A stretch of DNA of 64,000 nt from Acetobacterium malicum subsp. dehalogenans DSM 11527 (GTDB taxonomy: Bacteria > Bacillota > Clostridia > Eubacteriales > Eubacteriaceae). A model generated the notes under the pieces. It searched no databases and was not told the DNA's origin. It worked only from the letters and a program-made list of their open reading frames with translations. Each line of letters begins with the position of its first letter. Position 1 is the stretch's first letter. The position numbers and the translations under genes were made by a program. The stretch is taken from NCBI RefSeq assembly GCF_000472665.1, contig NZ_AXAC01000017.1, positions 1-64,000 on the forward strand, read 5' to 3'. This document shows, piece after piece, positions 1-24,754 of this stretch.

Positions 1-1302
1 GCTTCCCATTTCGCATAATAGGTAATCCCATCAACCGGATATTTTTCTGGCAGCTCACTGACTTCTTCACCGGAAAAATCAGCTTCTTTAAACCATCTTA
101 GCGTATAGCCAACTCTGTTTTGCACCGGCATGGTTCGATCAGTGATTTCCTGATCGGTGACACCATTTAAATCCGGTATTTCCGTTCCACCATTTTCTTC
201 AAAACTAATCACCGATGGGTTGGCTTCCCATTTCGCATAGTAAGTTAAGCCATCGACCGGATACTTATCAGGTAGTGCGGTCACGACATCCCCGCTGAAA
301 TCAGCACTGGCAAACCAGCCATTAAAGGTGTACCCGTCCCGGACTGTGATCGGCATACTCGTATCAAGAATTTCCCGATCCGTGGCACCAACCATCTTCG
401 GTACGTCGGTACCGTTATTGGTGACAAATTCAATCGCTGCTTCATCCGCTGTCCATAAGGCAAATAGGGTCGTGTCCTGGGTGACTGTATCAACTCCAAA
501 ATCCCAGGGCGTAATGCAGGCGTCTTCCTTGAACCAGCCACCAAACGAATACCCGCTTCGGATCGGATCGGGCGGCTTTGTCGTTACCGACTCATTCTGT
601 GCCGTCTGTGCCGGCACAGCGCTCCCGCCCAGGGAATCAAAGCTTACCGTATACAGATTAACATTCCACTTGGCAAACAGCGTTAAATCCGACTGCACCC
701 GATCACTGGCAAATGTCCAGACAGTGTTGCATGCTGCGTCCTGATACCAGCCTTTAAACGTAAATCCCGGCTTGAAAGGGTCACTCGGACTGGTAATCAT
801 CATGTTATAATCAGCACTGATTGAACCAACCAGACTGCCACCCTGAGAGTCAAACGTGACCGTTAAAGCGGTGGCATCCCACTTCCCATAAAGGGTCGTG
901 TCGCCGGCAATGGTGTCTTCAGTAAAGTTCCATGGGGTATTGCATTCAATCTCCTTAAACCATCCCAGAAAAACATAATTACTCCGGGTTGGAATTGGTG
1001 TCGGTTCTTCGATATTTGAGCCATATTCGACCGTAATCGAACTAAAAGTGTCAGTTCCTCCCTGGGGATCAAAATGGATTAAATAGGTGTTTATTTCCCA
1101 TTTGGCATAGAGTGTGGTGACTCCCATAATCCGATCCGATTCAAAATTCCAGGGATAAGCAAAACCAGGATCTTTAAACCACCCTTTAAACGAATATCCC
1201 TCCCGGGTCGGTTGACCTGGTTCTGTCAGCAGCGCATTGTATTCAGCGCTCTGGGCACCTATGTCATTGCCACCGTTGGTATCAAAATAAACCTCATAGG
1301 TG
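1..1302 (-). repeat. InlB-type B-repeats in the adhesin gene
   Basis: Six consecutive repeats of about 200 bp are visible. The four N-terminal ones have the WNF...D..TLYAKW form. The two nearest the window edge are a longer subtype containing a KYPVDG-x-TYYAKW block, and they are similar to each other at DNA level, pointing to recent duplication. The array probably continues to the left. Confidence 0.7.
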
Positions 1303-3278
1303 AGCGGTGTTTTGATCACTTCCTCATATAAGGTATATACAGCCTGTACCGGATTGATAAGCACGTCGTAGATAACCGGGAGATCCGGATCAACCACAAC
1401 CTCTACGTCAAACGCATACGCTTCACTCTCACCGGCAGCAGCATTAAGGGATTTAAAGGCATAACGATTGGTTCCCAGATTGGCCGGAACAAATTCAATC
1501 GTCCAGACGATCTCATTGGCCAGCTCATTGACCGACCGGCTGATCAGCATCCCGTCACCCAGGGAATCGGATCCAAATTGTTTCCCGACACCACTGTCTG
1601 TATTGGTAAAGGTCAGATTCTTGGTGGCCCGATTGGTCACCACTTCAATTTTGACCGTTTCATTCTTATAGTACGGTGCTTCTGTGACAGCCTTGACCGA
1701 TTTGATCACCGGTGCCACCGTTTCATCAGTGGTATCTTCCCCGGGTACACTGGTTGGCGGTACCAGGTTGGCCGGCAGATCGGTGGGCATCGTATCACCC
1801 ACCTTTGGATCCGGTGGGGTACTTTCCTCCAATGGCCGGATCGTCAGCGTCCGATGGGTGTACTCATTCCCACCACAATTGATGGTACCCTCCGGATAAG
1901 GTGAAATCGACATTTCCAGATCATAGCTGGTTACTGTACTGACATCCGGGGTATGCCATTTTAAATAGCTGTAGGACTCGGTTTTCATCGGAGCCACCAG
2001 CGAATCGGTACCAATCACTTCGCCGTTGATCTTATAAGTCACCGTCAGCTCACTCCCGGGGGTCGCATTGATATTGGAGTAAACCGGCGTACTTAAAATA
2101 ACATCGGTATTGGGCCGATAATCGTTATCCCGGGGCTTATTGTATTCGGCGGGTTTAAGTGCCCGAGCCATACCCCAACCGCCATATTTGACCTGTTGAT
2201 CGCTGAACCAGCGATTAAAAGGAATGGCAGCATTCTGGTCTACCCCGGAGCCGGCTGCCAACCCATACCAGGTGCTATTGGTAATGACTGAGTTTCCCAT
2301 CAGCAAAAATGCCAACCGGGAGACATGCTGCCGATTGGCATTGGGCTTCCAGGCATCCGGCTGTTGTCCGGCCCAGGCCGTCCAGCGGGTTTCATCGTAA
2401 CGCCAGTCCATCTGATGGTTAATCTGAGAAACTGCAAAATCAGTAGCTGATAAAGCATAACCGTAATAGGATCCCGGGTGGGCAGTATCCTTCACATAGA
2501 CAATCGATACCGGCTCATAAACGATCAGCCATTCCACCTGATTGGTGGGGTTGTCACTGATTGCATCGGGTAAAATCCCTTTCGGATTCCAGCCGGTTCG
2601 GGTTTCGCCATCAATGGTAAACTCCAGATTTTTGACAAGGTCTTCCTTTGACACCCCTTGTTTACCGGCATAGAAATTGAGAACGGTATTGATCGTATCA
2701 AGGCTATTGAAATAACTAGCTACCTTGGTAATGCTGCCCACTGAATCCCCATAAATAACACCGTTGTCGTAAATATCGCCATCACTGAGCTGTGGGACAT
2801 AAGGTGGTTGTACAGGAGGCTTTAATAAATAAATACCGCTACCTGATGCAAGCTGAACCGGATCCAGTGCATTGACATCCCCGCCTTTACTCTGGAGTTC
2901 CATTAAAGTATCAACCTTGTTTTCCTTGGAAAAGAATAATCCGGAGATATTCGATGGCCGAGAACCAGCTGCCCAGCCATTCCAATTGGAAACTGGAGTC
3001 AGATAAACAGCCTGATTACCAATCCGGTAAAATTCATTCATGTTCGATGAATCCTTATTGACCGTATCTGACTTGGCCACAAACAAGGAAACCTTCCACA
3101 TATACTGATCGCTGTAGTAGAAGGCATCTTCAGTATAGGTCGGGTTCCCAGGCACGGTACTGGAATTATCTTCAGCCCGGGCCACCATGGGTGTCATTCC
3201 CCAAAAAAAACCTGTCAGTAAAACAGTCAGCATCACTAACCACAGTGACCTGAAATGACTTTTTACATGCACATCCAT
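1..3278 (-). CDS. Large secreted InlB-repeat surface protein (partial, C-terminus outside window)
   Basis: An open frame runs uninterrupted from an ATG at 3276-3278 (AGGAGG six bases upstream) off the left edge. The N-terminus is basic, then a hydrophobic stretch ending in a signal-peptidase-like ARA-ED site, so export is likely. About 600 residues of unrecognised, Trp/Tyr/Asn-rich ectodomain follow. After them come at least six Listeria/Bacteroides-type (InlB B-repeat, Flg_new-like) repeats of about 70 residues, each with a FDxxGG start, a GWF centre and a YAKW-type end. The family mediates surface adhesion; mating-pair contact or biofilm is an inference from its place in a conjugative element. 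The anchor signal is not visible because the C-terminus is cut off. Confidence 0.8.
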   Translation of the reverse strand, partial: MDVHVKSHFRSLWLVMLTVLLTGFFWGMTPMVARAEDNSSTVPGNPTYTEDAFYYSDQYMWKVSLFVAKSDTVNKDSSNMNEFYRIGNQAVYLTPVSNWNGWAAGSRPSNISGLFFSKENKVDTLMELQSKGGDVNALDPVQLASGSGIYLLKPPVQPPYVPQLSDGDIYDNGVIYGDSVGSITKVASYFNSLDTINTVLNFYAGKQGVSKEDLVKNLEFTIDGETRTGWNPKGILPDAISDNPTNQVEWLIVYEPVSIVYVKDTAHPGSYYGYALSATDFAVSQINHQMDWRYDETRWTAWAGQQPDAWKPNANRQHVSRLAFLLMGNSVITNSTWYGLAAGSGVDQNAAIPFNRWFSDQQVKYGGWGMARALKPAEYNKPRDNDYRPNTDVILSTPVYSNINATPGSELTVTYKINGEVIGTDSLVAPMKTESYSYLKWHTPDVSTVTSYDLEMSISPYPEGTINCGGNEYTHRTLTIRPLEESTPPDPKVGDTMPTDLPANLVPPTSVPGEDTTDETVAPVIKSVKAVTEAPYYKNETVKIEVVTNRATKNLTFTNTDSGVGKQFGSDSLGDGMLISRSVNELANEIVWTIEFVPANLGTNRYAFKSLNAAAGESEAYAFDVEVVVDPDLPVIYDVLINPVQAVYTLYEEVIKTPLTYEVYFDTNGGNDIGAQSAEYNALLTEPGQPTREGYSFKGWFKDPGFAYPWNFESDRIMGVTTLYAKWEINTYLIHFDPQGGTDTFSSITVEYGSNIEEPTPIPTRSNYVFLGWFKEIECNTPWNFTEDTIAGDTTLYGKWDATALTVTFDSQGGSLVGSISADYNMMITSPSDPFKPGFTFKGWYQDAACNTVWTFASDRVQSDLTLFAKWNVNLYTVSFDSLGGSAVPAQTAQNESVTTKPPDPIRSGYSFGGWFKEDACITPWDFGVDTVTQDTTLFALWTADEAAIEFVTNNGTDVPKMVGATDREILDTSMPITVRDGYTFNGWFASADFSGDVVTALPDKYPVDGLTYYAKWEANPSVISFEENGGTEIPDLNGVTDQEITDRTMPVQNRVGYTLRWFKEADFSGEEVSELPEKYPVDGITYYAKWE

Positions 3279-4284: not shown

Positions 4285-5151
4285 CTACATTTCCGGTTCC
4301 CAGTCATTTTCTTTTTCATCTTCAGAAATAAGCTGCATTTCCTGATTGAGCAGTGGATAATCCTGATCAAAGAGCAGATTTTCAAAGAACTTGATCAAAT
4401 AGGCATCGGTATGACTGATGTTTTTTACTTGATTGCTATAATTGGCCCGTACCAGAGCATTTCTGAAATAAAGCGCATTATCTTCAAAAGGATCATTATT
4501 CACCTGAAAACCCAGACCATTTAAATATTGAACCATAAATACCGCCACCGTTCGGGTGTTTCCTTCCCGGAAGGGATGCACCTGCCAGATGGAAGAAGTA
4601 AAGCTGCAAATACTGCCGACTTTTTCCTGATCGTCCATACTGACGTAATTTTTCTTTTTTTCGGTCTCAAAGTCATAGGCCAGAGTATCTTCAATCATGA
4701 AATAATTAGCATAAGAAACGCTCTCACCGCCTAGAACCGGCTCTTTTTTATAAATATTTTTCTCCCTGAAAACACCAACCCATTCCGCCGGCAGAATATT
4801 TTTAAAGAGATACCGATGAATGCCTTTAAGCGATACCGGACTTAGAACAAAGCCGGCGTTATCCAGCAGAGAAGCAATCCGTGTCGAAACTATGTCGCAT
4901 TCTCGCTCGCCTTTTACCTGGTCATCTTCCGGCAAGGTCTGATAATGGTTGACCAGGGCATTTTCAACTTCCTGATAGGTCAGCTTGCCACTGAAATGAT
5001 CCGGAAGTAATTCATTGGTCAGATATTCGGAAGGATTTAGCTGATCGATCTTATTCAGTCCAAAACCAATATTCCAGTATTTTTCTTTTTGGCTTCGATC
5101 CCTTGTTTCTTCGATCACTTGATAGGTTTCAGTATATTTCTGATCAGTCAT
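4285..5151 (-). CDS. Fic-domain protein (probable AMP transferase)
   Basis: A 288-residue protein with the Fic core HPFREGNTR at about residues 190-200, close to the family consensus HPFxxGNGR, whose His is catalytic in AMP transfer. The last position before Arg is Thr instead of Gly. N-terminal and flanking helices fit a Fic fold. I could not find the usual inhibitory (S/T)xxxE(G/N) helix or an adjacent VbhA-like antitoxin. The extreme C-terminus is acidic and ends NDWEPEM, matching tails on the relaxase, Toprim and DUF4406-like proteins. Fic proteins are known substrates of some type IV secretion systems, so transfer to the recipient is possible (inference). Target unknown. Confidence 0.8.
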   Translation of the reverse strand: MTDQKYTETYQVIEETRDRSQKEKYWNIGFGLNKIDQLNPSEYLTNELLPDHFSGKLTYQEVENALVNHYQTLPEDDQVKGERECDIVSTRIASLLDNAGFVLSPVSLKGIHRYLFKNILPAEWVGVFREKNIYKKEPVLGGESVSYANYFMIEDTLAYDFETEKKKNYVSMDDQEKVGSICSFTSSIWQVHPFREGNTRTVAVFMVQYLNGLGFQVNNDPFEDNALYFRNALVRANYSNQVKNISHTDAYLIKFFENLLFDQDYPLLNQEMQLISEDEKENDWEPEM

Positions 5152-5924: not shown

Positions 5925-6485
5925 CTAGAACTTTGGTGTATAACCAGATACCGTTACCCGCTCCACCACAATCGGGGGAGCGTTAAACATGGCTCCCAAA
6001 AACCGCCAGGGCACCGTGATGGTATTGGTGGTTTCTACGGTAAGGGCATCCCCCTCCGCTGCTGCCAGCTGGGTGTTGGTGATTTTCACCGTTGTATCCC
6101 TTGGCTTTAAGGAAAACAAGACATTGCCGGCATCATCCTCCTTGACCCAGGTATTGCCCGCCACCTTAAATTCGATCATTTTTTTCATTTGAGCAAGGAT
6201 CTGTTCCCGGTTCATCACTTCTTCCCAGTCATCGGTTAATTCGGCTTTCGTATACGTCCCGGCATAACCTTCCCGGACACCCTGATAAACCTCGTCCCAG
6301 TTTTCTATCGCCACGCCCTGAACCGACTGCTCCACCGCCTGATCCAGTTGCATAACGATGGATACAACCCTTAAATACTCGTACATCGCACAGAATAGCA
6401 TCAGTAGAATTAGCAGTAGTGCCGCAACCATGGGAACAGACATCCCAGAATCTTTTTTCTTAAATAGCTCCGTCAATCCCATCAT
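5925..6485 (-). CDS. TadE/TadF-like minor pseudopilin
   Basis: A 186-residue protein whose basic N-terminus ends in KKDSG, followed by one hydrophobic helix and a long soluble domain. This is the layout of type IVb/Tad pseudopilins processed by a prepilin peptidase after Gly. The start overlaps the end of the preceding TadE-like gene, so the two are co-translated. It probably forms the pilus base or tip with its neighbour. The identity rests on architecture and on the upstream TadA-TadB-TadC genes. Confidence 0.6.
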   Translation of the reverse strand: MMGLTELFKKKDSGMSVPMVAALLLILLMLFCAMYEYLRVVSIVMQLDQAVEQSVQGVAIENWDEVYQGVREGYAGTYTKAELTDDWEEVMNREQILAQMKKMIEFKVAGNTWVKEDDAGNVLFSLKPRDTTVKITNTQLAAAEGDALTVETTNTITVPWRFLGAMFNAPPIVVERVTVSGYTPKF

Positions 6486-6886
6486 TTATAGTACACTCCG
6501 CTTCGTCCACTGGCAGGAGCCACCAGTTCAATGTTGAAACCACCCCCAATAAAACTGCTGAACCAGACAAAATCTGACTTCACTGTTACCTGGATCGGAT
6601 CGTTAATCTGCACATTTTTTGTCCCCCCGATATACTGTGTTCCGTTAAAACTGATTTCTTTTGTTTTTAATCCCGTTTCTGCCTGCAAATATTCATAAGT
6701 ATCCATTACTGTATTCCCGGTATTCCCCACTAGCTCCGCATCCCGCAAGACACCATGGGCGATGTAGTTTAACTTCTGATACTGTGTCCAGACCGGTAAA
6801 ACCCCCATAATCAAGGTTAAAATAAACATTGCCAACAGGAAGAATATCGAAAACTCCAAAATGGCTGAACCTTTATCTACTTTCAT
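6482..6886 (-). CDS. tadE: TadE-like pseudopilin
   Basis: A 134-residue protein starting with a short DKG-SAILEF sequence and a hydrophobic helix of about 22 residues. The Gly cleavage site and Glu at position +5 are hallmarks of TadE/TadF and other prepilin-like proteins. The remainder is periplasm- or surface-exposed. GGAGAG precedes the ATG. It directly follows tadC and overlaps the next pseudopilin gene. Confidence 0.7.
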   Translation of the reverse strand: MKVDKGSAILEFSIFFLLAMFILTLIMGVLPVWTQYQKLNYIAHGVLRDAELVGNTGNTVMDTYEYLQAETGLKTKEISFNGTQYIGGTKNVQINDPIQVTVKSDFVWFSSFIGGGFNIELVAPASGRSGVYYK

Positions 6887-6896
6887 TTGAACTCTC

Positions 6897-7778
6897 CTAT
6901 CCGAAAATACTTGGCAGTGTGGTCATAATGTCATAACCAATGGCATAAACCACCATGAGCAGAAATGTAAAAAGCAAAATATAGGGGTACTTTTTAATTT
7001 TTTCCAGTCGCCGGTTCATTTCCTTTTTCAACCGGTTCTTTTCAAAAGACCGCAATTGAATCCCCAGCTGCTCAAAGTAAGCCACGATATCATCGCCCCT
7101 TATAACTGCAATTAAGCCCTGGGTTACATCCGATAAAAGGGAGCTGACCACCCGGGCGTCCAGCCGGGATATCGCATTTTCATAATCCGATGTTTTCATG
7201 TCGGCAATGGTTATTTCTACTTCTTCGCCCAGTTCGCCGTCCGAGTTTTTACGGTAATCAATCAGGATCGCCAACAGATCCTGTCGTTTTTTTATTTCCT
7301 GTTGGACGGTATTGACAAACCGGGGTAATTCCCATTCAATTTTTTCACGACGTTTCCGCATTAACTGATCAATCTTTCCGATTTGATCTGAAAATCGCCA
7401 GAAGGCATAAAAAAGTAGAATGAGCGTAAAAATCGGATGAACAAATACCAGGATTAAACCCAACCCGGCATAAATACCGGACTCCACAAAGGCACGTCCA
7501 TAGACCATTTCCGGGGTATCCAAAGATCCCAGGGATTTTAGGGCATTGCTCATTTTTTTACGTTTGTAGGGATTGAGCCGGACATAGGGCAGAATCAAAT
7601 GGGATACCTTAAAGATAAAGGCATCCAGAAAGTTGACCTTCTCCTTCTTTTTTTTGCCAACTGCCATGATTGTTTTTATTTCCCGATGGGATGGCACATC
7701 AAAAATGCCACCGACCAACTGAAATAATCCATAACCAAAAAGCATTGCCAGAATGATTAAATAGGCCGTGTTATTCAT
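6897..7778 (-). CDS. tadC: Tad pilus inner-membrane platform protein TadC
   Basis: A 293-residue membrane protein with an N-terminal helix, a central hydrophobic pair at about residues 95-130, a long cytoplasmic GspF-like helical region and a C-terminal membrane segment. This is the T2SSF/TadC layout. With TadB it forms the platform on which the ATPase TadA works. It has its own GGAGG ribosome site and lies 17 bp after tadB. Confidence 0.75.
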   Translation of the reverse strand: MNNTAYLIILAMLFGYGLFQLVGGIFDVPSHREIKTIMAVGKKKKEKVNFLDAFIFKVSHLILPYVRLNPYKRKKMSNALKSLGSLDTPEMVYGRAFVESGIYAGLGLILVFVHPIFTLILLFYAFWRFSDQIGKIDQLMRKRREKIEWELPRFVNTVQQEIKKRQDLLAILIDYRKNSDGELGEEVEITIADMKTSDYENAISRLDARVVSSLLSDVTQGLIAVIRGDDIVAYFEQLGIQLRSFEKNRLKKEMNRRLEKIKKYPYILLFTFLLMVVYAIGYDIMTTLPSIFG

Positions 7779-7795
7779 TATTTAGCCTCCTTTTG

Positions 7796-8749
7796 CTAAC
7801 GATTGTATTCGATGGGTTTGATATCCTTTATTGCAGCATTGAGGGAGATAAAAATGATCATCAGTACAACGGCCAGAATGATCTTCCCGCCCCATGAATC
7901 CATAAGTGCCAGGTACCAGGTTCTATTGATGAAATAAAAAAGCACCGGCACACCGACATTCATAAAAACCATGGTGAGAACAATCCGCAACGGCGTATGC
8001 ATATCCGTTCCAAAGTCATCATTCGCTTCTTTGATATCCGTAAATTTACGGACAATCGCCGGCAGCGTTTCAATCAGGTTGGGATTGTCCTGGCAGGCAA
8101 TCACCGCCCGGCACCACTCCTTATAAATCTGGTTATCGATCTTTTCACTCATTTCCAGCAGTGCCCCGGGAATATCCGCCGTGATATAACTGATATCAAA
8201 GACAAAGGCTTCAAACACCGGCAACAGGGGTGGATTGATATGGTGCAAATTTTCCTCAATGGCTTTGATGATATTTCGTGATCGACTGTAGGAAGTCGTG
8301 ATCACCGACAGTGTTTTATTGAGTTCATCATTTAATTCCTTCCGATAGGTTATTTCTGCCAGTTTGATGTACCAGAACGGGAATAAAGCCAGACCAACGC
8401 CAAGCACTGCTGATATTAAAATGTTCTCCATCATTAATCCAAGAATCAGACCCACAATAAACAGAATTGTTGCTGCCATCACCAGAATGGTAAAAACACT
8501 TTCCCGATTGGTTGTTTTTAAGATCATCTGGGCTTCCCGGATGGTTGTGGTCAGTCCCTGAAATGGCGACCTTCGAAATAGTAACCTTCGCTTTTTCGGG
8601 ACGGTCTTTTTAATCACCGATTGAATATCCTGCTTATCATTGACGACCCGATCCATGAGCTGGCTTGTCAGATCAAAAGGGGATACGTTAAATAACAGGC
8701 ACAGGCCCGCAATCAGCAGCGCAAAAATTAAAAAGCTTATCCCGTTCAT
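7796..8749 (-). CDS. tadB: Tad pilus inner-membrane platform protein TadB
   Basis: A 317-residue protein with hydrophobic segments near the N-terminus, at about 88-130 and at the C-terminus, enclosing a soluble helical T2SSF-type domain. The gene starts in an ATGA overlap with the stop of tadA, the usual translationally coupled tadA-tadB-tadC order. It is part of the pilus assembly platform in the cytoplasmic membrane. Confidence 0.75.
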   Translation of the reverse strand: MNGISFLIFALLIAGLCLLFNVSPFDLTSQLMDRVVNDKQDIQSVIKKTVPKKRRLLFRRSPFQGLTTTIREAQMILKTTNRESVFTILVMAATILFIVGLILGLMMENILISAVLGVGLALFPFWYIKLAEITYRKELNDELNKTLSVITTSYSRSRNIIKAIEENLHHINPPLLPVFEAFVFDISYITADIPGALLEMSEKIDNQIYKEWCRAVIACQDNPNLIETLPAIVRKFTDIKEANDDFGTDMHTPLRIVLTMVFMNVGVPVLFYFINRTWYLALMDSWGGKIILAVVLMIIFISLNAAIKDIKPIEYNR

Positions 8750-10083
8750 CGCGCCTTTCCATCCTCGTCTAACTGCTTATCAATGAAACGCTCCAGGGTA
8801 CGGGTCGGAACACCATTGGTAATCAGCCACTGTTGCAGACTTTTTGACATGTTGTTACGCTTAACAAAATGTCCTTTAATGACTGTCTTTTCATCTGAAA
8901 TTTTTTCCGAGCTGTCAATTTCATAGTCATACAACGTCCGGAAGTTTGAATTCCCATGTTCATCCACAATACATTCGGTGATCTCCATGACTTTTCGGGA
9001 GTAATCGTCCAGACGCTTACAGAAGATAGCAATGGTAAAGGCTTCGCATACCAGTCGGTACAGCACCTTATCCTCCAAAGTAGAATCCATCATACAGAGG
9101 GTCAGCATCCGGGTATAGGCTGCCCGGCAGGAGTTGGCGTGGGTGGTTGTCAAAACCGCATGGCCGGTTCGGGCTGCTTCCTGGGCAGCATAAGCTTCTT
9201 CCCCTTTCATTTCCTGGGGGACGATAATATCCGGATCACAGGTCAGGGCTGTTTTTAATAACTCTCTTGAGTTAATCGACCCATGGGTTTTCCAGTGAAC
9301 CACGTTATTATCGATAATCCCATTTTCATCCCGGGTTACTAAATCCAGTTCTCTGACATTTTCTTCAATGGAAACGATCCGCTTTCGTTTATCCACATCT
9401 CCGAGAATTCCGTCTAAAGTTGTCGTTTTTCCGGAGCTGGTCGATCCGGCTACAACCCCACTCAAGCCACTGGAAGCGCACAGATTGATAAAATCAAACA
9501 TTTCCTCTGTGAGGGTTTCCTTCCTGATTAAATCATTCCTTCTTAGTTTACTGGGATTGACAAAACGGATTGATGCCTGAACGCCCCTTTCCTCATCGAT
9601 AATCGGTGGGCAAACTGCGGTGATTCGAATATTATTTTTTAAGTACCCAGTCACAACAGGTGTTGCAGCGGATAAGGTTTTTTCTGATTGCTGAAATAAT
9701 AATCGGATCATGATGTTTTTGGCTGATTCGGCTGACAGGAAAGTTTCCGGGGCACGAACCACATCCCCATTTTTATAATGCAGCACCACACTATCAAAAC
9801 TATTGACATTGACTTCCTCCAGCTCCTTATCCTCATTTTCCAGATAAGGCGTTAAAATCCCGTATTCCCCCATTTCTGAAAAGATCCGATTAAGCAGCTC
9901 AATGCTGGTGTATCCATCGATTAATACACGATGATCTTCAATATACTTACGAATATCTTTCTTAATCAACGCTTCATTTTTTTTGACATCACCCAGCGCC
10001 TTGGAATTGGTTCGGCTGATATACTGTTGAATACGCCCGATCAGATCCAGCAGCTCCTGATTGCGCTTGTATTGACTGTTCAT
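8746..10083 (-). CDS. tadA: Tad pilus assembly ATPase TadA/CpaF
   Basis: A 445-residue member of the type II/IV secretion ATPase (VirB11/GspE-like) family. Walker A GSTSSGKTTT is at about residues 214-223; the Asp-box/Walker-B-like region PDIIVPQEMKGEEA and the His box ARTGHAVLTTTHA follow. The N-terminal domain fits CpaF/TadA. It powers assembly of the Tad pilus at the cytoplasmic face. Both ends overlap neighbours by ATGA, so tadZ-tadA-tadB are tightly coupled. In a conjugative element it could also take the role of a VirB11 ATPase (inference). Confidence 0.85.
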   Translation of the reverse strand: MNSQYKRNQELLDLIGRIQQYISRTNSKALGDVKKNEALIKKDIRKYIEDHRVLIDGYTSIELLNRIFSEMGEYGILTPYLENEDKELEEVNVNSFDSVVLHYKNGDVVRAPETFLSAESAKNIMIRLLFQQSEKTLSAATPVVTGYLKNNIRITAVCPPIIDEERGVQASIRFVNPSKLRRNDLIRKETLTEEMFDFINLCASSGLSGVVAGSTSSGKTTTLDGILGDVDKRKRIVSIEENVRELDLVTRDENGIIDNNVVHWKTHGSINSRELLKTALTCDPDIIVPQEMKGEEAYAAQEAARTGHAVLTTTHANSCRAAYTRMLTLCMMDSTLEDKVLYRLVCEAFTIAIFCKRLDDYSRKVMEITECIVDEHGNSNFRTLYDYEIDSSEKISDEKTVIKGHFVKRNNMSKSLQQWLITNGVPTRTLERFIDKQLDEDGKAR

Positions 10084-10961
10084 TCGATTTCCTCCTTCGC
10101 TTTTCTAAATGGAATTTTAAAAAGCTTACGTTTCGGACTTTTTTCTTTTTTAATGCGCTCTTTTTTTTGCCGTTTTTTTTGATTTCCCGATTTTCTTTTT
10201 TTATTTTTCTGATCCTTACTTTCTTCTTCCTGGATCAGCTCCTGACTTAACTGGTTGAGTGCATCCACAAACTCCCGATTCCGTTTGGTTTGTTTAAGGG
10301 ACTTAATGGATGTTTCCTCCAGATAAGCCATCTGAATATCCATACTGTAAGGAAAGGCATAATCGACGCCCCCGTATTTATCCCCCACCAGCAGCCAGGA
10401 GTCAAAATCCCAGGGGTTATTCAATACCCGGATAACATTGTCCCGAAACCCGGTAAAGTCCTGGAGCATGGCAGTGGTTCCATTAAAAAAGGCGATGCTT
10501 TTTAAATCACCGCCACCGACCATCACACACTTTCCATAACGTAATCCATACTGGGTAATCCAATCGTTGTGAAAGTTGGATTGACCATCAACGATGGCAT
10601 ATTTAAACTTCTGGCCCAGGGTGACAAACAGGTCAATGACCTGGGGTTCCACCACCTCCGGATAACTGAGCTTGGAATCCTCACTGCGGTATCCCAAAAA
10701 GGCCAGGTATTTATTCTTGGGGTGATTGACTAACGTTTTTAGCAGTTCTTCCTGGTCAAACCCGGCCATGGTAATAATCTTTCCCAGAGATCCACCTTCC
10801 TTATTGAGACTGGGAAAGAGATAGGATAAGGGACTGGCCTGATCTTCGGTGAAAATCAGAACCACATTTTCCTTTGTTTTTTCACTGATTTTCTTGGCCA
10901 ACTCCAGACTGAGAGTTGTTTTCCCACCCCCCGGGGATCCCCATACGGTGATTACTTCCAT
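10080..10961 (-). CDS. TadZ/CpaE-like P-loop ATPase
   Basis: A 293-residue protein with the deviant Walker A GSPGGGKTTL at about residues 8-17 and a ParA/MinD-like domain. A very Lys-rich tail of about 60 residues may bind membrane or nucleic acid. TadZ/CpaE proteins place the Tad machine at a cell site. It lies directly before tadA, with an ATGA overlap. Confidence 0.65.
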   Translation of the reverse strand: MEVITVWGSPGGGKTTLSLELAKKISEKTKENVVLIFTEDQASPLSYLFPSLNKEGGSLGKIITMAGFDQEELLKTLVNHPKNKYLAFLGYRSEDSKLSYPEVVEPQVIDLFVTLGQKFKYAIVDGQSNFHNDWITQYGLRYGKCVMVGGGDLKSIAFFNGTTAMLQDFTGFRDNVIRVLNNPWDFDSWLLVGDKYGGVDYAFPYSMDIQMAYLEETSIKSLKQTKRNREFVDALNQLSQELIQEEESKDQKNKKRKSGNQKKRQKKERIKKEKSPKRKLFKIPFRKAKEEIE

Positions 10962-11107
10962 ACTGACGCCTCCTTTTCCATTATTGCGTGATGCTCGCTT
11001 TTCGGATCAATAAAAATTATCTTCTTGTCTTTTAAAAATTCTCTCAATCGTTGAAAATCACAACGCATTCCCATAAACCTGCTTGATGGTTCCTGGTTTT
11101 GCTCCAT
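10952..11107 (-). CDS. 51-residue protein upstream of tadZ
   Basis: A small frame with GGAGG six bases before its ATG (11105-11107); its stop overlaps the tadZ start. The upstream extension of the frame is only read-through of two palindrome copies (translated as LFPRET), so I exclude it. The product is charged, soluble and unrecognised. Translational coupling to tadZ suggests a linked role. Confidence 0.5.
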   Translation of the reverse strand: MEQNQEPSSRFMGMRCDFQRLREFLKDKKIIFIDPKSEHHAIMEKEASVWK

Positions 11108-11132
11108 TATATCCTCCGTTTCCTGATCATTT

Positions 11133-11149
11133 TGTTTCCCGAGGAAACA
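11133..11149. repeat. Dispersed 17-bp palindrome, copy 3
   Basis: Exact forward copy, 47 bp from copy 4, forming a pair in the spacer between cpaB and the 51-residue gene. Confidence 0.9.
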
Positions 11150-11179
11150 AGATCGTAAATCGTCCAATCCATCATTTCC

Positions 11180-11196
11180 TGTTTCCCGAGGAAACA
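11180..11196. repeat. Dispersed 17-bp palindrome, copy 4
   Basis: Exact forward copy two bases after the cpaB stop codon. Confidence 0.9.
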
Positions 11197-11198
11197 AC

Positions 11199-11918
11199 TT
11201 AAATGCCACCCACCTTAAATACTTCTTCCTGTTTTTGTAAAAACTGGTTGGCTGTATCTTCATCCCCTCGATACATCAGGGCAAAGATGATATTACCATT
11301 CTTTTCCAAACCGGTGAGCAGCTGGGCCTGGGCTTTATTGACCAGCAGGGTCACCGTCGCCGGCAGCTCCGTATCATCTGAGAGTTTTTCTCCACCCATA
11401 TCCACCCCGGTCTGGGTGGTCACCGCCAGAACTTTGACATATTGCAGTTCGGGATAAACGGTGCTGCGGTTACCCACTGCTTCGGCATTATTTAAAATCA
11501 TCACCACATCGCCAGGCATCAGCTTTCCGGAAATCCCATTAGCAAAGTCCTTGATGGTGACCGAAATAATCTGTTTCCCGCCATCCAGGGCACTCATATA
11601 GTTCCCACTGGTGATCATGTCATTAACCAACTTGCTTTGCAGGACATAATCACCGGATTCCAGCTTTGCGGTGGAATACTTACCAATGACCTCATTCTTA
11701 TTTTTGATGGCGTTAGCCGGCAAGTTATATCCGCTAACCTCCACTTCCTCAACATTCCGTTCGGTGAGTTGATCCCCCACCCGGATGGTTTCTTTGACCC
11801 GTACAATCGTTGTGGTATTGCCAATCATTCCTGTGCCTAGGGGCACAATCACCCAGGATAATAACAACGCAAAGACGACTACAAAAAAACCAATCAGCAT
11901 CTTACCTCCATTTTTCAC
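11199..11918 (-). CDS. cpaB: CpaB/RcpC-like SAF-domain pilus protein
   Basis: A protein of about 239 residues with an N-terminal membrane helix and a SAF domain (the GDQLTERNVEEVEV region) typical of CpaB/RcpC, which acts in Tad pilus assembly outside the membrane. The GTG at 11916-11918 overlaps the prepilin peptidase stop as GTGA and is preceded by AAGGATGG. An internal ATG at 11898-11900 with its own GGAGG is an alternative start. Confidence 0.7.
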   Translation of the reverse strand: MKNGGKMLIGFFVVVFALLLSWVIVPLGTGMIGNTTTIVRVKETIRVGDQLTERNVEEVEVSGYNLPANAIKNKNEVIGKYSTAKLESGDYVLQSKLVNDMITSGNYMSALDGGKQIISVTIKDFANGISGKLMPGDVVMILNNAEAVGNRSTVYPELQYVKVLAVTTQTGVDMGGEKLSDDTELPATVTLLVNKAQAQLLTGLEKNGNIIFALMYRGDEDTANQFLQKQEEVFKVGGI

Positions 11919-12508
11919 TGATACACCATCCTTTCTAACAGCATTAAAGCAATCATAAAACCCGAGCACAGAAATGGTGCGAAGGCAAACACTTCATTGC
12001 GCTTCAGATGCCTGGCCCGGGACCATAGGATACTTAAGAGTAATCCGATCATTAGACCGGTTACGCCAGCATCCCATCCCAGATAAAACCCACAAGCGGT
12101 GACGAGTTTAACATCCCCTAAGCCAATAGCCTGATCCTGTTTGGTCGCTTTTTTAATTAGCCAGCCAGAAACAGCCATCAGACTTCCCAGCGTCACTGCC
12201 CCAGGGATGGCCTGCTTCATTAACCATTCCCCGTTGATCCCAAGACAACCCACTAACAAAATCAGGGGATGGACAAATCGGGGTATCGTTTTTGTCTTAA
12301 AATCGAAGTATCCGACGTAAAACATCAGACACAAAAACAATCCGGTGCGTAAAATAATCACCGGATCATCAATCACCAATAATAAAAATAATAAAGGCGT
12401 TACCACAATGAATGTCGTGGATAAAAACGCCTTTTCAAACTGCCTTTTTAATACCGATCCCATATAGAACCAGCACCCCAATACGCCGGCAAACCCTAAT
12501 GCTGCCAT
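11915..12508 (-). CDS. Prepilin peptidase (TadV/CpaA, A24 family)
   Basis: A polytopic protein of about 197 residues. The two catalytic Asp motifs of A24 aspartic prepilin peptidases are visible: FDFKTKTIP after the second or third membrane segment, and GLGDVKL later. It would cleave the Gly-type leaders of the element's pilins. The ATG at 12506-12508, seven bases after AGGAG, is preferred over the upstream GTG. Confidence 0.75.
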   Translation of the reverse strand: MAALGFAGVLGCWFYMGSVLKRQFEKAFLSTTFIVVTPLLFLLLVIDDPVIILRTGLFLCLMFYVGYFDFKTKTIPRFVHPLILLVGCLGINGEWLMKQAIPGAVTLGSLMAVSGWLIKKATKQDQAIGLGDVKLVTACGFYLGWDAGVTGLMIGLLLSILWSRARHLKRNEVFAFAPFLCSGFMIALMLLERMVYQ

Positions 12509-12516
12509 TTCCTCTC

Positions 12517-12837
12517 CTATTCCCACTCATTTAAATGGATGTAGGCATAGTGCTTACGGCCCCGATAATAACTGATGATGTGCGAAAGCATATCCAGAAA
12601 AGACTGATTATCTTTCTCGCTTTTCTTCAAAATCAGATAAGAAGACAACAGAATCGCCAGGCCACCGAAAAATGTTCCGATGGGATCGGCAAAGGTAACA
12701 TAGTAAAGGGCACACAGAATGACGGTGATGCAGACCATCACTCCCATCAGGAATACTTCCTTTACCTCCATTCCCTCAATCACCTGACGGTTGGCTTTAA
12801 TCCCCATGGGGATATACAGTTCCTCGTGATACTCCAT
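12517..12837 (-). CDS. PrgI/VirB3-like conjugation membrane protein
   Basis: A protein of about 106 residues with two close membrane helices at roughly residues 28-70 and a basic Tyr-rich tail, the pattern of the PrgI family (VirB3-like) in Gram-positive conjugation systems. There the next gene is normally a VirB4 ATPase; here it is the prepilin peptidase and Tad set. GGAGG precedes ATG 12835-12837. Confidence 0.6.
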   Translation of the reverse strand: MEYHEELYIPMGIKANRQVIEGMEVKEVFLMGVMVCITVILCALYYVTFADPIGTFFGGLAILLSSYLILKKSEKDNQSFLDMLSHIISYYRGRKHYAYIHLNEWE

Positions 12838-12853
12838 CAATTCCTCCTTTCTC

Positions 12854-12870
12854 TGTTTCCCGAGGAAACA
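12854..12870. repeat. Dispersed 17-bp palindrome, copy 5
   Basis: Exact forward copy three bases after the stop codon of the 75-residue membrane gene and just before the ribosome site of the PrgI-like gene. Confidence 0.9.
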
Positions 12871-12873
12871 GCT

Positions 12874-13101
12874 TTATGTGATATAAGCCAGAATCACATC
12901 CCGAAACGGGATCAGGGTATTGACAATGACACAGAAGATTAAAACGTGCCTGATCCGCCTGACGTAAACCCCTTTTTCATCAGGCGAATGAATCATATGG
13001 GTAATACAATAACCCACCCGAAAGGCAACACCAACATTGATCAAGGTGAGCAGTAGGCCGTAGATGTTATTCAGATCCGCAAAATAATCAATGGTTTCCA
13101 T
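12874..13101 (-). CDS. Small two-helix membrane protein
   Basis: A 75-residue protein with two hydrophobic segments (about 14-33 and 50-70) joined by a basic loop. It sits between VirB6-like and VirB3-like genes, so a place in the mating channel is likely. AAAGGAG precedes the ATG. I do not recognise the family. Confidence 0.55.
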   Translation of the reverse strand: METIDYFADLNNIYGLLLTLINVGVAFRVGYCITHMIHSPDEKGVYVRRIRHVLIFCVIVNTLIPFRDVILAYIT

Positions 13102-13130
13102 GAGACTCCTTTCTTCGCAATTTTCTGTTT

Positions 13131-13949
13131 TTATTTTACCGACCGCACGGCCACCTCCGTGACTCGGGCAATGGTTAACGCCTTTCCCGATAAATTGGCA
13201 TTGCCAGCATGAACCATAAACTGTTGTAGCAAGACCGGTGTGGAAATTCCTGCTGCAAGGGCACCAAAGCCAATGGCAAAATCACCGGTGGCCATCAGTA
13301 CATAGGATAGTGACAACAGTGACAGCTGGATAATGGTGGTAATACCGGCCTTGAAAAAGGTCATCATAAAGGGGGCAAACACCCCGTTGTCACTTTCAAT
13401 GAGTCCCACACAGGCCAGTGGAAAACCGATCTGCATGATCCACATCTGAAAACCTCGGGCCAGCATTTGAAAATAGAGGATCAATGCACCAATGAAAAAA
13501 ACAAGCACCGCAAATGGCCCCATATTTGCTTCAATTAAGTTCTTAACATAGTTTTCTTCGTATAGAAACTCTGAATTCATACTGTTCAAGATTTCATACA
13601 GCACCCCCGTACACACCCGGGCAAAGATCTGATAGAGCATCGGAAAAGCCACAATCATGACCACCGCTTTAACCGTTCGTTGCAGCATCGCCATGGGATC
13701 GCTATCCGGATCACCGCCTGTCCAGGTGATATAGGTTTCAAAGCCACTCTTAGAAAACTTAATTACCAATAGTAACAGGGCCAGTTGATAAAAAATTTGC
13801 GTCAGCCCCGTGGACAAATCGAGTCCCGAAACATCTCCGATATATTTATCGATGTAAAACACCTGCTCCGCCAGATTCTTGATGCTGCCGGTGATCACTC
13901 CGCTATTATTAACTGAATCATAAATAAAATTTTTAAAGATTGTATACAT
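13131..13949 (-). CDS. TrbL/VirB6-like polytopic conjugation protein
   Basis: A 272-residue protein with five or six hydrophobic segments, the layout of VirB6/TrbL inner-membrane channel proteins found next to coupling-protein genes in Firmicute conjugative elements. The first 30 residues are soluble. A hairpin with a T run separates it from the 85-residue gene upstream. It probably forms part of the DNA-transfer channel. Confidence 0.6.
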   Translation of the reverse strand: MYTIFKNFIYDSVNNSGVITGSIKNLAEQVFYIDKYIGDVSGLDLSTGLTQIFYQLALLLLVIKFSKSGFETYITWTGGDPDSDPMAMLQRTVKAVVMIVAFPMLYQIFARVCTGVLYEILNSMNSEFLYEENYVKNLIEANMGPFAVLVFFIGALILYFQMLARGFQMWIMQIGFPLACVGLIESDNGVFAPFMMTFFKAGITTIIQLSLLSLSYVLMATGDFAIGFGALAAGISTPVLLQQFMVHAGNANLSGKALTIARVTEVAVRSVK

Positions 13950-13971
13950 GGTTCTTCCTTCTCTCTTTGAT

Positions 13972-14009
13972 AAAAAAAGAAAAAGAACGGTTCAAACCAC
14001 AACCGTTCT
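13972..14009 (-). terminator. Intra-operon terminator or attenuator
   Basis: Nine-base stem AGAACGGTT/AACCGTTCT followed by T-rich sequence on the minus strand. It lies between the candidate pilin gene and the VirB6-like gene and could raise expression of the pilin relative to later genes. Confidence 0.65.
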
Positions 14010-14025
14010 TCTTAAATCTTTGCAT

Positions 14026-14283
14026 TTAAGATGTGGGTATATTTGAGAACAACGCTTGAATGTTTGAAGTAATCGACGGTAAAATCGTATTCCCAATGAT
14101 GTCCCGAAATCCAAACAAAAACAGTGCCACGCCCAGCAACCCGACAATCCACATCCCCGCGCCCTCAATAATTGAACCGGAATCGGTTTTCACTTCTTTC
14201 GCTTCGCCGTTTACAAATTTTGCGTGCTTAAGCACCAGGGATCTACCCAACGATTCTGCGACATTTTTTAATTTTAAAGCCAT
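14026..14283 (-). CDS. Candidate major pilin (Flp- or Maff2-like)
   Basis: An 85-residue protein with a basic leader of about 35 residues ending KTDSG, then SIIEG and one long hydrophobic stretch (about 43-65) and a polar tail. The DSG site resembles those of the two TadE-like proteins, so cleavage by the element's prepilin peptidase is plausible; Glu is at +4 rather than +5. A terminator directly downstream fits an abundant structural subunit. It could instead be a Maff2-type conjugation protein. Confidence 0.45.
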   Translation of the reverse strand: MALKLKNVAESLGRSLVLKHAKFVNGEAKEVKTDSGSIIEGAGMWIVGLLGVALFLFGFRDIIGNTILPSITSNIQALFSNIPTS

Positions 14284-14318
14284 TAAATTTCTCCTTTAAT
14301 TTTATTTTTAATTTCTCA

Positions 14319-14335
14319 TGTTTCCTCGGAAAACA
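14319..14335. repeat. Dispersed palindrome, degenerate copy 6
   Basis: TGTTTCCTCGGAAAACA, one mismatch from the reverse form, five bases after the stop of the 14341-14592 gene. Confidence 0.75.
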
Positions 14336-14340
14336 ACTTT

Positions 14341-14592
14341 TCAGGAACTCGGGAAGTAGCTTAAGAGCATAGTGATAAAACCATTGACCGTCATTCCAAT
14401 AACCAGATAAACCAGCGTCGTTTTCATGTTTTCTTTATACTTAATTTTTTCATGATCGTCAGCCTGTAGCCGTTTGACCACATTCCAGCCGATGACAATC
14501 AGCGCCAAAAGCGGCAAAACAATATAGAGTGCCAGGGACGCATCGGTCAAAAGCTTAACTAATCCGGTTACCCATACAAATTCTGTCAACAT
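14341..14592 (-). CDS. VirB2/TrbC-like two-helix membrane protein
   Basis: A protein of about 83 residues with two hydrophobic segments separated by a short charged loop (about 43-60), the usual arrangement of VirB2/TrbC-like mating-channel subunits. It lies directly after the coupling protein gene. ATG 14590-14592 is chosen because it is eight bases from GGAGG; two upstream in-frame starts are too close to it. Confidence 0.5.
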   Translation of the reverse strand: MLTEFVWVTGLVKLLTDASLALYIVLPLLALIVIGWNVVKRLQADDHEKIKYKENMKTTLVYLVIGMTVNGFITMLLSYFPSS

Positions 14593-14630
14593 CGCCATCA
14601 CCTCCTTTCATCAGAAGTTTCAACGCTTCC

Positions 14631-16574
14631 TTAAATCTGATAGCGCTTCCAGATTCCCCATAATTGGATTCCATTCTCCTGGTGGGTTGATCTGGCATCG
14701 CTGCGGATCATCCGGAGCTTGTTATTATGCTCTTTGCTGCCTAATCCATAGAAGTCATTAAATGACCATTTGCTTAAGTCCGGGGACGTCATAATCGCCG
14801 GATCATTCCGACTGGTTGCCAGGTTATAGGGACGTCGGATCCGACTGACTTCATTGGCTGTCAGCAGCTCCCGGCCCACCAGATTCACCGATTGACTGGA
14901 ATTGGAAGTGTAATGCTGCTGGGACGATGACAAGGAATAGGATGTGGTGGTATATTTCCCCAGTCGTTCGGACACCTCTTTTTGGGTTTCCAGATCCTCG
15001 GCCTGAAGATAAATCCAGGTTTCACAGTTGGATCGGATAATCCGGGCAATCTCCCGACCATATTTTTCTTCCAGTTGTGCCAGAGATTGAACAAAAATGT
15101 TAAAGCGGATCCCCCGACCGCCACCAACAGAAAGCTGGGTGGCAAACTCTGGAATCTTGGTAAAGTTCCCAAACTCATCCAGCACATAATTGACCCGGAT
15201 CGGTAAACGTCCGCCCAGCTTATCTGCAAAATCCGACAGCGCACTATAAACTTGGGTGCAGAACAGTGAAGCCAGAGAGTAATAGGTGGTTTTACCATCA
15301 GGTAGAATCATAAATACCGCCGTGGGCCGACTGCCAATGTCTTTGGGGCGAAAATCCGTTTTCCGGGTCATTTCATAAATCAGCGGATTGGTAAAGAGTC
15401 TTAAGGTCGTCAGCGCGCTGGTGTAAAAGCTGCCCCGGGTCTTTGATGGGGCAATATCGGAAATAGCTACCAGCCCCAAGGCCGGATGTGTCGGATTCTC
15501 AACTTTCAGTTTCTTCATATATTTGGCCAACATCATCTCGTCCCCTTGTTTGGGAGCTTTACACATCTCGGCTATGAAATAAAATACGTTGGTCAGGTTC
15601 TGATACTCCGGATTATCCATGTTTTCAAAAACCACGATCATAATGCAGCTGGCAATAATACTGGCTTCACCGTTGTTCCATAGTTTTTCCCCCTTGGCTT
15701 CCCCGACCAGTGCTCCGGTGATATCCCAAACATAATCGATGGCCTGAGACATATTTCCGCTTTCGACCGCATCGATAATCGACTGAAGAAAGTTGTAGTG
15801 ATTACTTTTAAGGGGATCTTTAAAATCCAGAGCAAACAGGTCAATACCGCATTTTTTTAGAAATGGGGCCGTATAATCGTAGTTCTCGCCTTTGGGATCC
15901 GAAACAATCACCGATTCTCTGGCCATTGCCAACAAGCCGATGGTTTGCAGGATCACGGTTCGCCCTTTACCACAGCGGGTTGCGCCGATGATTAGGCCGT
16001 GAACGTCTTCCCCGATAAAATAGACCTTTTCATTTCGTAATCCCTGTCGATCTTTCCCAATAATCAGACCACCCATTTTAAAGGGCTTTTTATTTTCCGT
16101 GATGGTTTTCTCAACCCAGTAGTTACCTTTTTTGATCTGTCTTCTTTCCTCCTTTCCGCTGCGTAACAAAAATTGAATAAAGGGATTATTCTTGCGGATG
16201 ACCACGTAATCAAAGGCCCGATCCTTCTTGTTGGGATCCAGCCACCGGGCCGAACCATGCTGATTCTGACCGGCCGGCCTGGGGGTTTGAATATCAGGGG
16301 TAATACTGATCAGCTCACTCTTATAAGTTTTGCTTTGGCCAATAAAAAAAGCCACTGCCATAAACAAGGCAAAGGCCAGACACAGAAGATACATGTGAAA
16401 GGTATTTTCTCTCACAACAACATAATTAAACACTTCCTTTAACGGGACGTTATAGGGTAAAATCCCCTGCCCTGTCATAAAGCCATCAATGGTCCGGATA
16501 AAAAACAGACTTCCGATGGCCAGCAACACAAAGACGAATCCTGCCATCAGCCCACGAACAATTTTTAACTTCAC
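14631..16574 (-). CDS. Type IV coupling protein (TraG/VirD4)
   Basis: A 647-residue protein with two N-terminal membrane helices (about 8-28 and 60-78) and an ATPase domain. Walker A is in IIGATRCGKGRTV and Walker B in SVIVSDPKGE, followed by the VNYVLDEFGNF box typical of TraG/VirD4. It brings the relaxase-DNA complex and protein substrates to the conjugation channel. It heads the membrane gene group and is the main evidence that the element is self-transmissible or at least mating-capable. Confidence 0.9.
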   Translation of the reverse strand: MKLKIVRGLMAGFVFVLLAIGSLFFIRTIDGFMTGQGILPYNVPLKEVFNYVVVRENTFHMYLLCLAFALFMAVAFFIGQSKTYKSELISITPDIQTPRPAGQNQHGSARWLDPNKKDRAFDYVVIRKNNPFIQFLLRSGKEERRQIKKGNYWVEKTITENKKPFKMGGLIIGKDRQGLRNEKVYFIGEDVHGLIIGATRCGKGRTVILQTIGLLAMARESVIVSDPKGENYDYTAPFLKKCGIDLFALDFKDPLKSNHYNFLQSIIDAVESGNMSQAIDYVWDITGALVGEAKGEKLWNNGEASIIASCIMIVVFENMDNPEYQNLTNVFYFIAEMCKAPKQGDEMMLAKYMKKLKVENPTHPALGLVAISDIAPSKTRGSFYTSALTTLRLFTNPLIYEMTRKTDFRPKDIGSRPTAVFMILPDGKTTYYSLASLFCTQVYSALSDFADKLGGRLPIRVNYVLDEFGNFTKIPEFATQLSVGGGRGIRFNIFVQSLAQLEEKYGREIARIIRSNCETWIYLQAEDLETQKEVSERLGKYTTTSYSLSSSQQHYTSNSSQSVNLVGRELLTANEVSRIRRPYNLATSRNDPAIMTSPDLSKWSFNDFYGLGSKEHNNKLRMIRSDARSTHQENGIQLWGIWKRYQI

Positions 16575-23881: not shown

Positions 23882-24754
23882 TTAACTGCTCCGGGAAAAA
23901 TACTGATCCAATGCCAACTCAACAGTCATCTGGATGTCACCTTCATCCTCCAGATCTGGAAAGTATTTTTCGATAATCTCCGGTGAGATTTTAAAGGTTT
24001 TTTCCGTCTTCTTTTTTAAAGCCTTATCATTGAAGATATCATTGAGCACTTCCATTGAAATTTCGACACTTTCCGCTTTTTTCCGGATGATATTTGCTTT
24101 ATGGTAGGAAAGCTTATTTCCGTCCAGCATAAAGGATCTCACCACGTCCTGTTCGGCATCAGAGAGATAAGACAGCTCCACCGCCGACTTGACGCTCAGT
24201 TTCCCTGAATCACAGAGATCTTTTAACCCTGTGGTCAGATTATCATCAATCTGCACGTAATAAAAAATCTGTCGTGTCCCAATATTGAAAGGATTATCTT
24301 TTTCCAATTCATTGAATTTAGATCGTTCAATGTCTGATAATTGATCTTTTCTTTTATTTAAGTCCTTCATCAGTTTATATCGACGGGCTACAATTTTTGC
24401 TTTCTCAGATATTTTGAAATCATTGAGATTTCGCTTTTTGATATTTGTTTCAATCAGCATCAGTTCAGCAGCGCTATCATCTTTTAAACCCTCATAAATA
24501 ACCGCATGAATATCTCTTTTTACAAGTCTTTTACAAGCTTCCACACGATTATGTCCGGAAATAATCTCAAACATCCCCTCATACTCATTATGTGGTCGAA
24601 CCAGGATCGGATCTGTCACTCCCATATCTTCAATACTTTCCATCATCGATTTCATTTCACTTTCATTGTACTTGGTAAAAATGTGATTCTTGAAATCAAT
24701 GAGACGATTAACTTCAATTCTAGCATAAATTGAAGATTCAGAATAATCAGCCAT
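23882..24754 (-). CDS. ParB-like protein, copy 2
   Basis: A 290-residue ParB/RepB/Spo0J-type protein: N-terminal nucleotide-binding domain with GHNRVEACKRL (the ParB box II position) and ETNIKKRNL, then a DNA-binding helical region and a C-terminal dimer-like segment. It is clearly paralogous to the 26155-27087 product. It could bind the dispersed palindromes or the 46-bp array; that is inference. It ends flush with the relaxase start. Confidence 0.8.
   Translation of the reverse strand: MADYSESSIYARIEVNRLIDFKNHIFTKYNESEMKSMMESIEDMGVTDPILVRPHNEYEGMFEIISGHNRVEACKRLVKRDIHAVIYEGLKDDSAAELMLIETNIKKRNLNDFKISEKAKIVARRYKLMKDLNKRKDQLSDIERSKFNELEKDNPFNIGTRQIFYYVQIDDNLTTGLKDLCDSGKLSVKSAVELSYLSDAEQDVVRSFMLDGNKLSYHKANIIRKKAESVEISMEVLNDIFNDKALKKKTEKTFKISPEIIEKYFPDLEDEGDIQMTVELALDQYFSRSS

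Follow-up and report, generated by a model that had tools for sequence, protein, structure and literature searches.

Several conjugative elements carry a type IV filament machine beside the apparatus that moves their DNA. The pilus of the IncI2 plasmid TP114 is needed for mating in broth and gut (PMC9045228), the type IV pilus of PAPI-1, a Pseudomonas integrative and conjugative element (ICE), is essential for its transfer (PMC12857230), and on linear plasmids of Cutibacterium acnes a tad locus adjoins genes for VirB4, a TcpC-like and an FtsK-like protein (PMC5696575). A survey of type IV filaments recorded many Tad systems in Clostridia, with no link to conjugation drawn in the passages of it that were available (PMC6668835). 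Here we analysed a 64,000-nucleotide stretch of the genome of Acetobacterium malicum subsp. dehalogenans DSM 11527 (the window, which begins at base 1 of contig C7), in which a cassette of Tad genes lies inside the conjugation operon of an ICE with a Clostridial-type type IV secretion system (T4SS). To our knowledge, Gram-positive conjugation has been described as pilus-free and Gram-positive T4SSs as lacking VirB11. Type IV filaments that serve conjugative elements are an already known kind of system. In the literature searched, outside which most subscription journals lie, no description of Tad cassettes in Clostridial conjugative elements was found; the Tad variant of Clostridia, how widely it occurs and the assignment of DUF6133 proposed below appear to be undescribed there.

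The gene list of the first-pass annotation was confirmed, with every named gene on the minus strand in the interval 16574–5925. In the direction of transcription the genes are as follows (coordinates are those of the window, while those on the adjoining contig, C19, are that contig's own; the arrow marks the putative prepilin cleavage site):

14631–16574, minus strand: VirD4/T4CP coupling protein, CD1115 family (NF045973, 306.5 bits against a cut-off of 250; PF02534, E = 2.8e-58)
14341–14601, minus strand: VirB2-like T4SS pilin (PF18895, 27.6 bits, just over the cut-off of 26.6)
14026–14283, minus strand: DUF6133-like small protein, proposed Tad major prepilin (weak PF19629 match, E = 0.026; KTDSG↓SIIEGAG with a hydrophobic stretch)
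13131–13949, minus strand: VirB6/TrbL (PF19597, E = 5.2e-79)
12874–13101, minus strand: small membrane protein of 75 amino acids, kept in congeners at 48–95% identity
12517–12840, minus strand: PrgI/VirB3-like protein, recognised by size, position and hydrophobic stretches only, with no Pfam family over cut-off; kept in congeners
11915–12526, minus strand: TadV prepilin peptidase (PF01478, 41.8 bits against a cut-off of 26.5)
11199–11969, minus strand: CpaB/RcpC (TIGR03177, 76.3 bits against a cut-off of 71)
Between CpaB and TadZ, minus strand: small doubtful open reading frame of 103 amino acids
10080–10961, minus strand: TadZ-like ATPase with GSPGGGKTT (hhalign to host chromosomal CpaE/TadZ, E = 7.2e-10)
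8746–10083, minus strand: TadA/CpaF assembly ATPase (PF00437, E = 7.8e-26; Walker motifs, GSTSSGKTT)
7796–8749, minus strand: TadB (hhalign to host chromosomal TadB, E = 3.4e-10)
6897–7778, minus strand: TadC (hhalign to host chromosomal TadC, E = 1.1e-5; a Lachnospiraceae relative matches PF00482, E = 0.0014)
6482–6886, minus strand: TadE-like minor pilin, DUF4320 (PF14208, E = 7.2e-26; leader KG↓SAILEF)
5925–6485, minus strand: TadF-like minor pilin (by position and a prepilin-like hydrophobic N-terminus, G↓MSVPM; sub-threshold PF07811, E = 0.2)

The DUF6133-like gene is thus placed between those for VirB2 and VirB6. The overlaps reported in the first pass were also found: the PrgI and TadV genes share 10 bp, and several further pairs of cassette genes overlap, which points to a single transcription unit. 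Scans for consensus promoters and terminators gave numbers close to those expected from shuffled sequence. TadB, TadC and TadZ gave no Pfam match over cut-off (TadB and TadC fall below PF00482 detection), and the hhalign values given for them are from profiles of the window proteins and their relatives, set against the proteins of the canonical Tad locus on the host chromosome. TadA was under the cut-off both for TIGR03819 and for VirB11 homology (VirB11 model, E = 2.7e-34). No match to the Flp major pilin (PF04964) was obtained among the window genes scanned; the DUF6133-like candidate, with its prepilin motif, is found there instead.

It had been remarked that no VirB4 was in view. This is true within the window, but it is an artefact of the contig edge, since position 1 of the window is base 1 of C7 and the contig ends there. 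The end of C7 (as reverse complement) and the start of C19 share 95 identical bases, in frame inside one adhesin gene; nowhere else is there a fully identical copy of the 95-mer. On C19, transcription in the same direction continues through more adhesins to a 249-amino-acid protein, a 686-amino-acid VirB4 ATPase, directly after it a peptidoglycan hydrolase with M23 and 3D domains, then a 310-amino-acid protein and a TadZ-like protein of 372 amino acids, and later an ArdC-like protein and one of 2528 amino acids. The split VirB4 and the hydrolase are on the same strand as the cassette, about 16 kb past TadF:

C19 9564–10313: membrane-anchored protein of 249 amino acids (VirB4 N-domain)
C19 10261–12321: VirB4 ATPase of 686 amino acids with Walker A and B motifs (NF045975, E = 1e-105; NF045971, E = 1e-41)

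Both family matches of the ATPase begin after the N-terminal domain, and the full-length cut-offs were missed because that domain is a separate gene. A structure model was predicted from orthologues of the 249-amino-acid protein rather than from the C19 protein itself, and its best 13 PDB matches were all structures containing R388 VirB4/TrwK (mean pLDDT 75; query TM score 0.40–0.50). Going by this predicted fold, VirB4 is made up of an N-domain gene and an ATPase gene, and a weak TrsD match fits such a split. The TadZ-like protein that follows the VirB4/M23 block (C19 14364–15482) is a second and larger one, with an atypical P-loop, GSQRRTGTTTT, and no Pfam match over cut-off.

The two contigs C7 and C19 are, by their sequences, parts of one ICE of about 93 kb, as copies of one attachment repeat lie at both outer ends of the joined pair:

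33850–34974, plus strand: tyrosine integrase of the ICE (XerC/D-type matches)
35169–35244: tRNA-Thr(CGT), adjoining the integrase
35164–35216, minus strand: ICE attachment repeat, the 3' half of tRNA-Thr(CGT), a 53-bp perfect direct repeat with its second copy at C19 58266–58318

The element has the integrase, attachment repeats, VirD4 and VirB4 of an ICE, and the hydrolase in its operon is a feature of MPF_FA/FATA systems. The same tRNA-Thr site is used in the closed genome G036. In the closed Acetobacterium genome G021 the whole gene set is contiguous, and six congeners (G021, G020, G032, G034, G035 and G036) each have a single contig with the order SSB-toprim-VirD4-VirB6-Tad cassette-adhesins-VirB4N-VirB4-hydrolase, preceded by ParB and relaxase genes wherever the stretch extends far enough. 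A chimeric assembly that fused a T4SS with a Tad locus is ruled out by this recurrence of the order in a closed genome and five more congeners. A 17-bp palindrome, TGTTTCCYSRGGAAACA, also ties the two parts together as one element, with 14 sites in the window (4266–24828) and 11 on C19 (9457–43902). Its 15-bp core matches 25 places in the 4.05-Mb genome; all 25 are full palindromes, all are on the ICE, and many are intergenic. The centre of the palindrome is polar, being mostly TCG (in the reading direction) in the stretch that starts at ParB and runs to just beyond TadF, and mostly CGA onward to the helicase, and congeners are alike in this. The palindrome appears to resemble the bacterial parS site. 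Genes for ParA and for two ParB-like proteins are carried by the ICE, and the sites may be a distributed operator of the ParB or KorB-like sort.

The Tad set of the window is not the host's own. The host has a separate canonical Flp/Tad locus on contig C2, with a TadA 27% identical to that of the ICE and three Flp pilins, one of which was tested and matches PF04964, so the window set travels with the ICE. Both loci encode a machine of the TadZ-TadA-TadB-TadC-TadE type; the chromosomal one has Flp pilins, whereas the ICE has DUF6133-like and DUF4320 proteins. The IncI plasmids R64 and TP114 likewise combine a T4SS (I-type there) with a separate type IV filament machine and its own adhesin on one conjugative element, but theirs is a type IVb pilus of diderms with a PilV shufflon, while here a Tad pilus of monoderm Clostridia is encoded by genes interleaved with those of the T4SS. 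Like PAPI-1, this ICE is predicted to bear a type IV filament, which in PAPI-1 is needed for transfer; the clear T4SS homologues of PAPI-1 are only VirB4 and VirD4, whereas here there are also a VirB2-like protein, VirB6 and the hydrolase. The C. acnes plasmids share the placing of a Tad locus beside conjugation genes in a Gram-positive, but they are actinobacterial, have an FtsK-like translocase and a putative transfer role, and no class across many genera was shown for them. As to the T4SS, the VirD4, VirB6 and VirB4 homologues are of the kinds found in Clostridial CD1115/CD1110-type and Mbov_0397-type systems; in the relative that lacks Tad genes, VirB4N and VirB4 come straight after PrgI, whereas here the Tad cassette separates them from it.

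Across Clostridia the cassette recurs as DUF6133-TadV-CpaB-TadZ-TadA-TadB-TadC-DUF4320/TadE-TadF with a secreted adhesin. A scan of one genome per species, with loci picked by TadA alone and VirB4 playing no part in the selection, left 80 loci, and the named records among them were Clostridia or Firmicutes/Bacillota. Two layouts were seen. In the first, PrgI-[TadV..TadF]-VirB4N-VirB4, loci L113 and L128 have no other recognised genes between these and L080, L082 and L098 have a few extra genes, bearing out the remark that the Tad set takes the place where VirB4 otherwise follows PrgI. In the second, DUF6133-TadV..TadF is followed by VirB6 and VirB4 several genes downstream. The VirB4 and TadA profiles were then run over 42 of the scanned genomes. 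The neighbourhood for which a survey had been proposed was borne out: VirB4 lay within 35 kb of 37 of the 55 element-type TadA genes, a count inflated by near-identical ICEs (e.g. Anaerotruncus, Flavonifractor, CE91-St43), and was on the same strand in 37/37 and downstream in 35. The corresponding figure for other full-length TadA/CpaF genes of the same genomes was 1/18, and this control rules out a chance neighbourhood. TadA relatives 36–44% identical, with the same flanking cassette, are also encoded on plasmids of Terrisporobacter (pTPHSE1) and Clostridioides (pESS10701c, pCd5_2 and pESS17301a) and on one Oscillospiraceae plasmid, and the T4SSs of cassette-bearing plasmids differ in kind (pLS20-type VirB6 with MobP2; TrbL with MobP3). 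TadA and VirB4 tree distances were correlated (r = 0.56, with 0/5000 permutations as high), with exceptions such as Desulfosporosinus, reflecting a partnership that is old but not exclusive.

DUF6133 is a Pfam family of unknown function. The 42 genomes contain 82 DUF6133 genes over cut-off, of which 7 are on contigs that have no TadA. The remaining 75 each have an element-type TadA no more than 15 kb away, in every case on the same strand, and 73 of them lie upstream of it. Most DUF6133 proteins have [G]E(G/N)Y(V/I)D ahead of a hydrophobic stretch; a motif of the same GEGYID type is also present in most TadE/DUF4320 proteins from these loci. Some divergent loci alter the motif in both genes together, e.g. 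GEFYID in both at L086. A shared leader motif is expected if a single prepilin peptidase acts on both proteins, and it suggests that DUF6133 is probably the major pilin. The DUF6133 profile also weakly matched genes for 135–140 amino acids just downstream of TadA, which is the size and place of DUF4320. The corresponding Acetobacterium pair is DSG↓SIIEGAG (DUF6133-like) and DKG↓SAILEF (TadE-like).

With moderate confidence, and from gene content and order, we favour a Tad pilus that serves Clostridial T4SSs in mating or adhesion, as the IncI thin pilus does for its own. The ICE encodes a Clostridial-type T4SS (VirD4, VirB2, VirB6, PrgI-like protein, split VirB4, M23 hydrolase and relaxase homologue) and, interlocked with it in a single gene set, a Tad machine. 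TadV would cleave the DUF6133-like major prepilin and the TadE and TadF minor pilins, and TadA with TadB and TadC would extend the filament. This filament and the large secreted adhesins would jointly make and hold the contact between donor and recipient in mating-pair formation, while DNA would pass through the VirB4/VirD4 T4SS. The interlocking of the genes speaks for this: PrgI overlaps TadV, the DUF6133-like gene is amid T4SS genes, and a TadZ-like gene comes just after the VirB4/M23 block. So do the signs that C7 and C19 are one element, the PrgI-[Tad]-VirB4N-VirB4 order of L113 and L128, the linkage of VirB4 to element-type TadA genes, the correlated TadA and VirB4 tree distances, the plasmids that pair the cassette with a pLS20-type T4SS, the tie between DUF6133 and Tad, and the Gram-negative precedents of TP114 and PAPI-1. 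Of the two alternatives offered in the first pass, that of a Tad mating pilus with VirB4 elsewhere fits the VirB4 and hydrolase on C19 and in the six congeners, the mating role being a putative one.

Several observations weigh against this account. Fisher's test of 37/55 against 1/18 (p = 3.8e-6) was computed without correction for relatedness, and several of the genomes are near-duplicates or drafts. In about a third of the element-type cassettes VirB4 was not found within 35 kb. At least one cassette, L089 of Lachnospiraceae, has agr-like regulators as neighbours; conjugation genes were not seen there, and the draft genome gave no VirB4 match, which argues that the cassette can serve other purposes and is not bound to conjugation everywhere. 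Beyond the left end of the window VirB4 and the M23/3D peptidoglycan hydrolase were found, but a search of the whole genome for VirB8/TcpC (PF12642) gave nothing at E = 1, a divergent form still being possible. The relaxase match is weak, as is the PF19629 match of the window's DUF6133-like protein, which has its Glu at +4, not +5.

Some of these observations would also suit a pilus that is a host adhesion or colonisation device, carried by the ICE as cargo to the benefit of the host and with no part in DNA transfer. We regard this as credible but doubtful. Tad pili are classical adhesins, large repeat adhesins follow the operon, and related cassettes such as L089 have no nearby VirB4. However, cargo would not be expected to lie inside the T4SS operon with a prgI/tadV overlap, to share the strand of VirB4 in every linked case, or to be paired with two different kinds of T4SS.

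An arrangement in the manner of PAPI-1, with the Tad machine obligatory in the DNA-transfer route and TadA doubling as VirB11, is unlikely. It would draw on the PAPI-1 precedent, on the interleaving of Tad and T4SS genes and on the place of TadA in the VirB11 superfamily, for which the match to the VirB11 model is below cut-off. Against this, TadA comes with TadB and TadC as partners of its own, and a related T4SS exists without Tad. Of the several copies of a related VirB4 in Chakrabartyella piscis, the one examined lies in the order VirB6-PrgI-like-VirB4N-VirB4-hydrolase-relaxase-VirD4, and the 40 kb covered contain no Tad genes; a large secreted protein upstream is, by eye, like SpaA/Cna_B adhesins. 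Such a T4SS indicates that Tad is probably not the DNA channel and that an obligatory role is unlikely. We hold it similarly improbable that these loci represent a widespread, undescribed class of Clostridial conjugation machine, with TadA as its VirB11 and with physical coupling of the Tad filament to a T4SS that could transfer no DNA without it. The other alternative of the first pass, that TadA replaces VirB4 in a hybrid system, had the lack of VirB4 within the window as its sole support and is refuted, keeping practically no credence: a VirB4 with Walker A and B motifs is in the same element, on the joined contig and in six congeners; for orthologues of its N-terminal domain, which is encoded separately, the predicted fold resembles that of R388 VirB4; and TadA is accompanied by a TadB, TadC, TadV and pilin candidate of its own.

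The cassette is linked to a conjugative VirB4 in species of the human gut (Anaerotruncus colihominis and Flavonifractor plautii) and is present on Clostridioides plasmids. If the favoured account of a pilus joining mating cells is true, it would help to explain the spread of such elements in liquid gut contents and sediments, and it would give testable roles to DUF6133 (major pilin) and DUF4320 (TadE-like minor pilin).

Further genes of the ICE in the window, on either side of the operon, are these:

3–3278, minus strand: 5' part of a large repeat adhesin (PF09479 repeats), continuing at C19 1–1233
3351–3905, minus strand: small protein with a single transmembrane segment ahead of the adhesin, kept in congeners and G036
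22868–23881, minus strand: MobP-like relaxase homologue (NF040665 and NF041893 matches, E = 4e-7, far below the curated cut-offs)
23882–24754, minus strand: ParB-like protein; a second ParB-like protein and ParA are at 26155–27980

In most loci, TadF and a small membrane protein are immediately followed by a large secreted protein. A similarly built protein takes the place of the single-transmembrane protein in 28 other loci, although the sequences are not alignable, and residues 384–495 of the Acetobacterium adhesin, outside its repeats, match the secreted protein downstream of TadF in several other Clostridia. The length of the repeat adhesin varies strongly among congeners, from 1465 to 2698 amino acids, and its repeats broke the assembly here. 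Two Fic-type proteins are encoded by the ICE, one within the interval between Tad genes and adhesin (window 4285–5151, PF02661) and one at C19 21072–21872. The former has 81% identity to its counterpart in G036, whose element is otherwise more distant, and is better conserved than its neighbours.

At about 30.8–38.6 kb of C19 there is a cargo block not seen in closed G021, with genes that were named by eye as SpeD-like, MoxR-type AAA, alanine-dehydrogenase-like, MFS transporter and methyltransferase-like. Past the attachment repeat, from C19 58266 onward, lies a partial second copy of UmuC-type genes that are present inside the ICE, and in G036 a third tRNA-Thr attachment copy is found about 10 kb further. 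The extra UmuC-type copy and the third attachment copy suggest tandem or degraded elements at one site.

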